Source: Anaerocolumna sedimenticola
GTDB lineage: Bacteria > Bacillota > Clostridia > Lachnospirales > Lachnospiraceae
NCBI RefSeq assembly: GCF_009931695.1
Contig: NZ_CP048000.1
Location: 2,683,501 to 2,747,500, forward strand
Direction of reading: 5' to 3'
Length of the DNA stretch: 64,000 bases
Part shown: one piece after another, positions 20,478 through 27,308 of the stretch
Layout: the number at the start of each line of letters is the position of its first letter
Position numbering within the stretch: the first letter of the stretch is position 1
The notes under the pieces: model-generated
Seen by the model: only the letters and a program-made list of their open reading frames with translations
Databases searched by the model: none
Told to the model about the DNA's origin: nothing
Program-made: the position numbers and the translations under genes

Positions 20478-21422
20478 ATGAAAAATATAAAATTGATAAG
20501 TATAATTAGTTTATTAATTTCAATAATCATTATTCCTATACATGTTTTTGCACAGGAACATAAAAGTTTTACAATCGAAAGCATAAGTAATAGCGATTAT
20601 GAACTATCTTTTGGGATCCTTAATAATCTGCCGGGCGCCGATGATTATGATGCATGTACAGGTAAAGAACTCAACAGATATATATTTCGAGGTGGCAAAG
20701 CTTACAAAGACGGAGTTATAGTTTATGGTCAATATGAATGGGAAAATCCTGATTATGTTATTAAAGATGGAGAACAGACTGTAACAATGCTCTTTAAATC
20801 TGATTCTGGTGAAATAGTAAAAGCTGAACTTGTGCTGTATGGTGTAAAGTGGGAAAATCCATATGCAGATGGTCCAAGTGAGCCAACTACGGACCCTGCA
20901 ACAGTTGAAGAGCAACCCACAATTACAAAACCATCCCTTACTGCTTCTTCTATTGCGTTGGATAAATCTTCAACGTATGACATTAATATAAATGATAAGG
21001 TATCCGGAACTTATGCTTGGACAAGTAGCAATCCCAAGGTAGCAAAGGTAAATTCCAAGAATGGTTTTGTTACCGCTGTTTCAGATGGTACAGCTAAAAT
21101 AACCTGTAAGATTACCGCTTCTGACGGCCAGGTATATACTTTAGTATCAACCGTAACCGTTGGAGTAGATGATAACTTACCCATCCTTACTGATGATGTA
21201 ATAGACCTGAATGCAGGTAATCAATATGATTTAGGGGTTGAAAATCAGATAGCCGGTTCCAAATACAGATATAGAAGTTCGAACCGTTCAATCGCTACGG
21301 TAAACGTTGCCAATGGCATTATTACAGCTAAGGGAGTTGGAAAAGCAAATGTATACTGTACAATTACCACCCCCGATAAACAGGTAATCGTACTTAAATG
21401 TGAAGTAAATGTAAACAAATAG
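20478..21422 (+). CDS. Secreted Big2/Ig-like protein, probable lysogenic-conversion gene
   Basis: The 314-residue protein has a clear signal peptide (basic start, hydrophobic core of Ile/Leu/Ser, cleavage after HVFA near residue 25). An unknown domain of about 100 residues (with KWENPYAD at its end) and a Pro/Thr/Glu linker follow. Two bacterial Ig-like (Big2) modules come next, recognised by TYAWTSSNPKVAKVNSKNG and by YRSSNRSIATVNVANGI with following GKANVYC. A signal peptide is out of place in a virion gene. With a candidate promoter in front and a hairpin terminator behind, the gene looks like a moron exported by the lysogen, perhaps to the cell surface. There is no LPxTG anchor. Confidence 0.75.
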   Translation: MKNIKLISIISLLISIIIIPIHVFAQEHKSFTIESISNSDYELSFGILNNLPGADDYDACTGKELNRYIFRGGKAYKDGVIVYGQYEWENPDYVIKDGEQTVTMLFKSDSGEIVKAELVLYGVKWENPYADGPSEPTTDPATVEEQPTITKPSLTASSIALDKSSTYDININDKVSGTYAWTSSNPKVAKVNSKNGFVTAVSDGTAKITCKITASDGQVYTLVSTVTVGVDDNLPILTDDVIDLNAGNQYDLGVENQIAGSKYRYRSSNRSIATVNVANGIITAKGVGKANVYCTITTPDKQVIVLKCEVNVNK

Positions 21423-25866: not shown

Positions 25867-26601
25867 TTATTCTATATCGGATAGATTTATTGTATCAAAT
25901 TTTTTACCTGTATCCTTATCAACTATATCAATCAAAAATTTAATATCTGCATCTTTTATACCATTGAATTGCTGATATCCACTACTCCATATAAATAGTC
26001 CTAAAGCCGTAGGATCATTTTCTACATTTTTTTGATATTCATTTTTATCAACCGTTGAGACGAAATAAGTAAAATCCTTATTTACAGTAATTGCTTCATA
26101 ATAAGGGAGCAAATTATCAGATAAGGAAGTTTTAAAATTTTCAGTTAAAAAATTCAAAATATCTTTTTGCTGAACAGTTGTCATTGTGTAAGTTGTTGTA
26201 TAATCATCATTCAGTTTAGTCTTAGAAAATTTAATGGTACCTAAATATTTTGTTATTGCATCATTGTTTAGCATATTAGTTACTGTTACAGTGACTGTTT
26301 TTTCATTGACCGTAATTTTACATGTATATTTTTTACCGTTTATTGCTGCAGTAATATTTGCGGTGCCTTTTTTCATGCCTTTAACAACACCTTTAGTACT
26401 TACAGTGGCAATTTTTTTATTGCTTGTACTCCATTTTGCTGCTTTAGTGGTACCTGTTAATTTTAAGGTAACAGAACTCCCCACCAAGATTGTAGCTTTA
26501 CTTTTATTAAGTTTAATAGTTGCAGCGTTAGCAGTTTGAACTGGTGCCGCTAATGCAATCAGAATGATGAAAGTCATTAGCACTGATAAGAATTTTTTCA
26601 T
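25867..26601 (-). CDS. Secreted Big2 Ig-like protein, probable lysogenic-conversion gene
   Basis: The 244-residue protein has a textbook signal peptide (MKKFLSVLMTFIILIALAAP, then cleavage around ANAA, residue 27). One Big2 Ig-like module (about residues 28-100, with AKWSTSNKKIATVSTKGVV) and a C-terminal domain of about 140 residues with no recognised family follow. It is convergent to the phage late operon, lies between lysin and attachment region, and has its own sigma-A promoter and AGGAGGG ribosome site: the classical place and layout of a lysogenic-conversion gene. It lacks a sortase signal, so it is probably released or wall-bound by its Ig module. Confidence 0.75.
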   Translation of the reverse strand: MKKFLSVLMTFIILIALAAPVQTANAATIKLNKSKATILVGSSVTLKLTGTTKAAKWSTSNKKIATVSTKGVVKGMKKGTANITAAINGKKYTCKITVNEKTVTVTVTNMLNNDAITKYLGTIKFSKTKLNDDYTTTYTMTTVQQKDILNFLTENFKTSLSDNLLPYYEAITVNKDFTYFVSTVDKNEYQKNVENDPTALGLFIWSSGYQQFNGIKDADIKFLIDIVDKDTGKKFDTINLSDIE

Positions 26602-26632
26602 TTATAACCCTCCTATGTAATAATATACCAAT

Positions 26633-26661
26633 AGTATGGGATTAATTTATTAAATTGTCAA
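26633..26661 (-). promoter_or_regulatory. Sigma-A promoter of the minus-strand Big2 gene
   Basis: On the minus strand TTGACA (26661-26656) and CATACT (26638-26633) are separated by 17 bp. The start point would lie about 25 bases before the start codon. The promoter sits downstream of the tandem hairpins, so these are not part of its leader. Confidence 0.75.
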
Positions 26662-26671
26662 TATAAAAATA

Positions 26672-26851
26672 CCCCATGCACAATAGGGGTAGCGCATGGG
26701 GTTCATCAAGATCTTATACTGGGGAGCATATAGATCGAAAATATATTACCACAAATTACTATTGTATTCAACATGAAATTACATAAAATGCCCCATGCAA
26801 TCTGGGGGAGAGCATGGGGCGCGTTTTGGATGCTAAGCGGGGTGCCTAGCA
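26672..26851. ncRNA. Tandem pair of GGGG-loop double-hairpin motifs (unknown RNA or site)
   Basis: Two copies of a two-hairpin unit are spaced 119 bases apart. Hairpin 1: CCCCATGC / GCATGGGG at 26672-26701 and again (with one more G-C pair) at 26790-26820, each loop with a GGGG(G). Hairpin 2 at 26710-26736 and 26831-26851: a 5-bp outer stem, a mismatch or bulge, a 2-bp inner stem and a GGGG loop. The outer stems differ in sequence (GATCT/AGATC versus TGCTA/TAGCA) yet both pair, which is compensatory change. On the minus strand hairpin 1 has a T-rich tail. No ORF is present. No known family is recognised. Confidence 0.45.
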
Positions 26852-26892
26852 AGAATATTTTAACATATCTTTCATAATGTGACAATAAAAGT

Positions 26893-26920
26893 AGCCCGGT
26901 TTTTACCGGGCTATCTGCTC
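26893..26920. terminator. Hairpin with 7-bp GC stem (terminator-like)
   Basis: AGCCCGG and CCGGGCT flank TTTTTA. On the minus strand it is followed by ACTTTTATT, on the plus strand by little T. It probably insulates the region between the tandem hairpins and the attachment repeats. Confidence 0.5.
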
Positions 26921-26924
26921 TTAG

Positions 26925-26957
26925 TTTGACATATATTTGACTTCCGTTTGACTTCCG
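26925..26957 (+). repeat. Three 11-bp tandem repeats, candidate integrase arm-type sites
   Basis: TTTGACATATA, TTTGACTTCCG and TTTGACTTCCG follow each other without gap, starting at 26925, 26936 and 26947. The 11-bp period puts all three on one face of the helix, like the P' arm sites of lambda-type tyrosine integrases. The location, after the last phage gene and before host genes, supports the right attachment arm. Confidence 0.5.
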
Positions 26958-27054: not shown

Positions 27055-27182
27055 TTAATAAGGACGTTGTTTAAACAGATAAATTTAATAAAGTCGTAAA
27101 GTAAAGTATTATTTTTGGGAGGTGGGATTGGCTTAAAGTCTGTGTTTATGAGATTTTATTTTGTGTTTTCGGGGTAAAAAAA

Positions 27183-27205
27183 AGGCCCACCAGGTTGGTG
27201 GGCCT
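27183..27205 (-). terminator. Strong terminator of the cysteine-rich peptide gene
   Basis: The 9-bp perfect stem AGGCCCACC / GGTGGGCCT with a 5-base loop is followed on the minus strand by a run of eight Ts. It lies 19 bases after the peptide stop codon. Confidence 0.8.
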
Positions 27206-27224
27206 ACAAAAAACTATTACATGC

Positions 27225-27308
27225 TTAGTTGCAAGAACCGAAACGGCAATATTTTAATATTTGTCTACATAATTCACTAAAATCGCAAGAACCAAAATTG
27301 AAACACAT
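27225..27308 (-). CDS. Cysteine-rich micropeptide (27 aa)
   Basis: The minus strand carries ATG 9 bases after a perfect AGGAGG, then 27 codons, a TAA and a strong terminator, i.e. a complete small transcription unit. The peptide has five Cys (positions 2, 8, 14, 21, 26) and a nearly symmetric layout, with FGSC occurring twice (FNFGSCDF near the start and YCRFGSCN at the end). There is no leader-type hydrophobic segment. It lies between the prophage end and an FMN-binding lipoprotein gene. It could be a metal-binding peptide, a redox peptide or a bacteriocin-like/RiPP precursor; no maturase is next to it. I do not recognise a family. Confidence 0.5.
   Translation of the reverse strand: MCFNFGSCDFSELCRQILKYCRFGSCN

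Follow-up and report, generated by a model that had tools for sequence, protein, structure and literature searches.

The repeated double-hairpin feature in the window (the whole stretch of Anaerocolumna sedimenticola DNA that was analyzed, 64,000 nucleotides) is probably a tandem pair of minus-strand small RNA (sRNA) genes, referred to here as sRNA A and sRNA B, whose predicted RNAs are about 70 nt long and would act by pairing of their C-rich loops with mRNAs. The gene anatomy, strand, two-hairpin structure, and family membership of the pair are strongly supported by computation. Judging by sequence, this tandem pair on a prophage looks like part of a new sRNA family whose functional kind is already known and which is multi-copy in Anaerocolumna and in one related genus.

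The CCCCATGC/GCATGGGG hairpins noted in the preliminary description were found at 26672–26701 and 26791–26819, spaced by 119 bases, and this pattern occurred twice in the window and in none of 100 shuffles. GGGG was present in all four loops on the plus strand, and the second stems of the two units had unlike sequences with pairing kept, the compensatory changes also holding across homologs. Thus, the sequence observation was correct, but not the strand as described: the functional strand is the minus one, and the loops of the RNA are CCCC. The minus strand of region 26655–26865 folded with an energy of −70.3 kcal/mol versus a shuffled mean of −43.4 kcal/mol (z = −6.5; none of 200 shuffles as low), whereas the plus strand of the same region was hardly better than shuffled sequence (z = −1.7; 10 of 200 shuffles as low). 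For single units, the minus-strand fold had z values from −5.8 to −6.5. In the 5′-to-3′ direction of the minus strand, a unit consisted of a promoter, hairpin 1 (loop CCCC), a linker, hairpin 2 (loop CCCC or CCCCC), and a U-rich tail.

The promoter of sRNA A (26857–26885, minus strand) consisted of the −35 element TTGTCA (26885–26880), a 17-nt spacer, and the extended −10 element TGTTAAAAT (26865–26857); it had the top score in the 60 nt upstream, and none of 200 shuffles scored as well. Hairpin 1 of sRNA A (26832–26850, minus strand) had 7 bp and the loop ACCCC, with a predicted transcript start at about 26850; hairpin 2, the predicted terminator (26790–26820, minus strand), had the loop CUCCCCCAGAU and was followed by a short U-rich tail (26782–26789, minus strand; 6 T in the 12 bases past the stem GGGG). 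The promoter of sRNA B (26743–26771, minus strand) was composed of the −35 element TTGAAT (26771–26766), a 17-nt spacer, and the extended −10 element TGGTAATAT (26751–26743); taken alone, it was equaled in score in 20 of 200 shuffles. Hairpin 1 of sRNA B (26710–26736, minus strand) had a longer, bulged stem and the loop UCCCCA, with a predicted transcript start at about 26736, while its terminator hairpin 2 (26671–26702, minus strand) had 10 bp and the loop CUACCCCUAUUG and preceded a U-rich tail at 26660–26670 on the same strand (9 T in the 12 bases past the stem GGGG).

A DNA search revealed a third copy in the same genome, G000 (L002, G000:4422534, E = 0.01), with the same fold (z = −6.3). 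A covariance model (R1) built from these three copies, which covered the RNA only, without the promoter, was run on 15 genomes of the genus and gave 17 places at E ≤ 1 in seven of them. Full two-hairpin units numbered 11 and were found in three of the 15 genomes (five in G000, four in G210, and two in G209), i.e., the distribution was patchy; the genome of the window contained three copies beyond the window's two. Locus L036 of G203 was a truncated copy, and five R1 places (L045, L037, L049, L038, and L039) were dropped, since their fold was unlike the two-hairpin unit. An RNA-only model of the 11 units (R2) was run on 397 genomes of the family, with 9–13 candidates per genome scored, and at E ≤ 0.01 it found only the genome of the window. 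With a model that included the promoter and tail (R3), matches at E ≤ 0.05 were obtained in 12 of the 397 genomes, where again 9–13 candidates per genome were scored, and, besides the genome of the window, only G313 and G200 fell below 0.001. Run on 41 genomes of relatives, the same model produced matches at E ≤ 0.1 in 8 of them. In a search of 392 genomes of the order, with 9–13 candidates scored in each, no new match was obtained at E ≤ 0.001. Since only 9–13 candidates per genome were scored in these large searches, the true spread may be wider, and absence elsewhere is weak evidence.

Genome G313, which belongs to another genus of Lachnospiraceae, carried four units, three of which were found with R3 (37–47 bits) and one by its loop pattern, without the promoter; it should be noted that this genome came up only with the promoter-containing R3 and not with the RNA-only R2. 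The stems of the G313 units were different (terminator CACTAC/GTAGTG), yet the loops were still UCCCCA or UCCCA and UCCCC.... Genome G200 contained a partial relative, in which hairpin 1 was present and the second part was altered. A pattern search of genome contigs returned 14 stretches, four of which were the four units of G210 (apparently Anaerocolumna sp. MB42-C2); of the other ten, L054, L058, L062, and L063 were viewed and rejected, and six in unrelated taxa were taken as chance. Of 19 weak covariance-model matches, one (L123) was kept as a full unit, four were partial or decayed (L107, L106, identical to L036, L120, identical to L051, and L114, identical to L050), and two in G210 (L121 and L122) had one of the two hairpins each and may be decayed copies. 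The remaining 12 matches, including the R3 matches in G414, G416, and G419 from other families of the order, were dropped because of an unfitting fold or loops, L131 being a hairpin-1-like element only.

In several further searches, no unit was recognized among the matches examined. Family-wide blastn gave short matches in 7 of 199 other genomes, and none of these was a unit upon viewing. A search for loop 1 with mismatches gave 32 matches versus 15 for a reversed control pattern; L013, with one mismatch, was viewed and rejected, and 29 further places had two mismatches. Distant blastn against phages gave nine weak records, which were judged unrelated from the match table. Five pattern scans of viral contigs returned 1, 17, 0, 15, and 0 stretches, and when all 33 were viewed with their flanks, none was seen by eye to have both C-rich-loop hairpins behind an AT-rich promoter.

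In 10 of the 11 Anaerocolumna units, hairpin 1 was preceded at a distance of 6–7 nt by TTGnnn, 14 nt, and TGnTAnnnT, i.e., by a promoter with 17-nt spacing. The identity of alignment columns was 0.82–1.0 for TTG and 0.82–1.0 for the fixed letters of the −10 element, as compared with 0.39 in the spacer and 0.44 over the 16 nt that precede the −35 element; the offset (5–8 nt) was chosen by the −10 element, and the −35 element played no part in this choice. Since R1 had been built without the promoter, the promoter represents independent evidence. When scored as single copies, the promoters were matched by 0–25 of 200 shuffles, save for that of L042, which had no convincing promoter (158 of 200 shuffles scored as well). 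In G313, TTGnnn-17-TAnnnT without the TG extension lay 6–7 nt before hairpin 1 in all four units; in three of them, the promoter is not independent evidence, because they were found with R3, which contains it. A U-rich tail followed hairpin 2 in all 11 units (6–9 T in 12 bases), and several of the tails were short or interrupted. Unit L046 was 87–88% alike with L047 and L048, which lie at different loci, over the transcript and not beyond it (500-nt flanks). The promoter, the terminator, and a likeness ending at the transcript ends indicate that each unit looks like a free-standing gene with a predicted RNA of about 65–75 nt. A stretch of roughly TGGnnAATnTTnnCA was observed just before the −35 element in six of the 11 units (L044, L035, L048, L047, L046, and L041) and not before the two prophage copies; it is perhaps a regulator site or an UP element.

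In the alignment of 11 units, 95.6% of 183 cells were standard pairs, and 8 of 17 pairs, versus 3.4 in shuffles, were changed on both sides (16 cells). The covariation score and the paired percentage were reached in none of 500 shuffles and the pair types in one of 500, a result that was repeated on a longer alignment; slid structures were 25–57% paired in the 11-unit alignment. A hand alignment of 15 units gave 247 standard cells of 255, with both stems varying between genera. These data support a conserved structured RNA family, although the covariation counts are inflated by related copies and the structure was derived from the same sequences. The asymmetry of G-U and A-C cells (36 versus 1 in 15 units; 25 versus 1 in 11 units) and the promoter are free of this weakness. 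Every G-U pair becomes a C-A mismatch when the opposite strand is read, and consequently the asymmetry indicates selection on the minus-strand RNA. Whereas the preliminary description took a lack of matches elsewhere or of covariation as evidence against the motif, both were found: full units occur in 3 of the 15 Anaerocolumna genomes and in a single genome outside the genus, and covariation exceeded that of shuffles.

The location at a phage end, as proposed earlier, is borne out by the finding of a putative attR sequence at 27088–27175 (plus strand), which was 98.9% identical over 89 aligned positions to G000:2669422–2669510 (L102, 9423–9511). Phage genes (terminase, portal, head, tape measure, and endolysin) extend to 25831. 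The left att copy adjoins a gene of the phage integrase family and lies just upstream of the start of a Trp-repressor-family gene. Since the repeat recurs beside an integrase gene, the prophage is about 41 kb long with both sRNAs inside, and the two copies of the repeat (27088–27175 and L102 9423–9511) are the putative attR and attL; the predicted starts of sRNA A and sRNA B lie 238 and 352 nt before attR, respectively. Each att copy has, on its phage side, two tandem occurrences of TTTGACTTCCG (window 26936–26957; L102 9511–9532), which are probably integrase arm-type sites. A gene for a Big_2 (Ig-like) protein (25867–26601, minus strand) is on the same strand as the sRNAs and starts about 70 nt past hairpin 2 of sRNA B; a second Big_2 protein is encoded at 20478–21422 (plus strand) in the tail/lysis region of the prophage. 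Just outside attR, at 27225–27308 (minus strand), a 27-codon ORF was noted; it features a good ribosome site, MCFNFGSCDFSELCRQILKYCRFGSCN, five cysteines, and repeated FGSC, and a terminator-like hairpin follows it at about 27185–27207. By its sequence, this ORF looks like a RiPP precursor or a small peptide.

A decayed version of the same phage end is present in G210 (L097, 8236–8769), with Big_2 and endolysin-end fragments, a broken A, and an intact B (86% identity); this remnant adjoins IS66 transposase ORFs. Other copies were found near ecsC in three genomes (G000, G210, and G209); in two of these, G000 and G210, a sigma-70-family gene (sigH by eye) flanks the copy on its other side. Copies were also found after a periplasmic-binding-protein gene in G000 and after its ortholog in G210. 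One G000 copy lies about 850 nt downstream of tmRNA. The truncated A-like copy of G203 (L036/L106, C62) is located after a sigma-factor gene and a tRNA-like stretch, and 3′ of it there is a promoter-like stretch resembling that after sRNA B, followed by a zinc-ribbon protein gene; this context hints at sRNA-plus-promoter cassettes beside varying genes.

Both window units lie just upstream of the Big_2 gene on the same strand, L042 of G209 extends over the start of a Big_2-like ORF, and the G210 copy is followed by a Big_2 fragment, so that a cis-regulatory leader was considered, in which the hairpins would form a tandem attenuator of the Big_2 5′ UTR with the second hairpin as a regulated terminator; we regard it as quite improbable. 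Other copies have no close same-strand gene downstream: the gene that L046 and L002/L040 face is on the other strand, which leaves these copies without a downstream gene for cis control, and ecsC begins about 210, 230, and 900 nt after its three copies. In addition, the minimum-energy and centroid structures agree, no competing antiterminator was seen in them, and both units of the pair have a promoter-like sequence of their own. The ecsC gene was likewise rejected as a cis target. Its homologs were detected in 13 of 15 genomes of the genus, and in a comparison of 12 upstream regions, the four closest homologs (G000, G210, G203, and G209) kept a similar sequence before ecsC with or without a nearby sRNA; thus, the link looks like one of neighborhood and not of a leader. 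Of the three options offered in the preliminary description, the tandem structured RNA was retained, while a recombination site and a protein site in DNA were disfavored in view of the promoter, the terminator, and the presence of G-U and not A-C pairs. More broadly, a DNA element (a recombination site, a REP-like or MITE-like mobile repeat, or a protein-binding site) would agree with several intergenic copies per genome, their patchy spread, the position of one copy near the IS66 transposase, and that of two near attR, but is very improbable: G-U is kept and A-C is almost absent (one RNA strand is selected), the likeness between loci stops at the ends of a transcript that has a promoter and terminator, and attR and the integrase-arm-like repeats sit elsewhere than the units.

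The earlier statement that no family with this plan was known to its author was not quite accurate: read from the minus strand, the arrangement of a 5′ hairpin, a linker, and a terminator hairpin, with C-rich loops and several sibling copies, is that of LhrC and resembles that of csRNAs. A search of Rfam at the gathering score with the whole window and nine loci gave nothing at the units, with only tmRNA and tRNA matched. Rfam includes an LhrC model, and the 16 sub-threshold matches (E ≤ 5, 26600–26950), none of which was named LhrC, were judged to be chance. The exact CiaR-type motif TTTAAG was absent within 100 nt upstream of hairpin 1 in all 15 units. Since there was neither an Rfam match nor TTTAAG, the family was not classed as LhrC or csRNA. 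In Listeria monocytogenes, LhrC has a CU-rich motif in loop A, the linker, and the terminator loop each, and its pairing with lapB mRNA impedes translation (PMC4132741). The likeness to LhrC1–5 consists in multiple sibling copies, each with its own promoter (active in LhrC), whereas the RNAs described here are about 70 nt long, have a CCC linker in only 6 of 15 units, and include two copies on a prophage. The csRNAs of the streptococcal CiaRH regulon are 51–202 nt long, have two stem-loops in 32 of 61 cases, were found as a promoter plus terminator, and are complementary to translation-start regions (PMC3091779). Their pairing sequence lies in unpaired regions such as the linker, with anti-start-codon letters, whereas here the constant part is the C-rich loops. 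In Staphylococcus aureus, Rsa RNAs and RNAIII have unpaired UCCC motifs in hairpin regions, whose pairing with the translation-initiation signals of mRNAs is predicted for the former and stated for the latter (PMC3861533). The UCCC-type motifs are alike in those RNAs and the units described here, while no Rfam match at the gathering score was obtained here. Rsa RNAs and RNAIII are mostly single-copy and longer. Searches of open PMC papers returned no sRNA literature on the genus Anaerocolumna, and none of the papers listed described this family in its title or the opening of its abstract.

As to the mode of action, each unit would be transcribed from its own sigma-A-type promoter, the RNA beginning with hairpin 1 and extending past hairpin 2 (about 26850–26782 for sRNA A and 26736–26662 for sRNA B). 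The exposed C-rich loop 1 and the terminator loop, together with the CCC linker in 6 of 15 units, would pair with G-rich Shine–Dalgarno regions of mRNAs, and the translation of these target mRNAs would be repressed, as reported for LhrC, csRNAs, and Rsa RNAs; by analogy with these systems, we infer LhrC/csRNA-like translation repression by this family. The longest C run was 3–7 nt in 29 of 30 loops and 2 nt in one, and the loops were constant between genera while the stems drift. Nine of 15 units had UCCCCA as loop 1, the remaining ones having a near variant of it, and loop 2 varied more (8–15 nt, and in sequence). C runs of at least 3 nt were found in 14 of 15 loops 1 and in 15 of 15 loops 2, the units with a CCC linker being L046, L041, L047, L035, L042, and L048; CAUCC after hairpin 1 was seen by eye in six of 15 units (sRNA A of the window, L046, L041, L047, L035, and L048). 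A pairing test set ten segments, taken from loops or linkers of four units, against 296 translation-start regions from 427 kb of the genome of the window. GGAGG was about 21 times denser in start regions than mid-gene, and the segments paired better on average with start regions than with coding sequence, some of them only slightly; letter-shuffled segments did equally well. The test is thus consistent with Shine–Dalgarno blocking but not specific for it, and target prediction over the 296 start regions identified no target.

The near-constant loop 1 on variable stems in two genera and the several copies per genome would also fit RNAs whose C-loop hairpins titrate an RNA-binding protein, without mRNA pairing, by the logic of Csr/Rsm-like sponges; such titration was raised by the LhrC authors as well (PMC4132741). 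In the present family, we consider it unlikely, since loop 2 varies in length (8–15 nt) and sequence beyond what is usual for a protein site. It also counts against titration that, to our knowledge, no protein is known to bind UCCCCA hairpins in Firmicutes.

With respect to the prophage, relatives of host sRNAs on mobile elements are known from other bacteria. AgvB of E. coli is reported to be a mobile-element sRNA resembling or interfering with a host sRNA (PMC4104026), and csRNA3L of pneumococcus and RocRp of Legionella are described in the same terms in a paper according to which phages also alter csRNA3 at their att sites (PMC9764711). An sRNA relative on a mobile element is what the present pair has in common with them; here, the host copies themselves are several. 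If the sRNA A and sRNA B genes act by pairing with mRNAs, the prophage copies would increase or change the dose and the target set of the host family in lysogens. It is possible, and we propose this tentatively, that a prophage with its own tandem copies of a multicopy host sRNA family rewires the lysogen: its copies keep the C-rich loops, differ in other contact sequences, and may compete with or extend the host regulon, e.g., for surface proteins such as the adjacent Big_2 protein, while in a relative the phage end has decayed and one sRNA copy is intact, as if domesticated.

The family would provide Lachnospiraceae with a compact sRNA family whose promoter, structure, and terminator are all readable from the sequence. 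It may serve as a test case for whether translation repression by C-rich loops arose repeatedly in Firmicutes, as well as for whether temperate phages manage their hosts via siblings of host sRNAs, as reported for the pneumococcal and Legionella elements.
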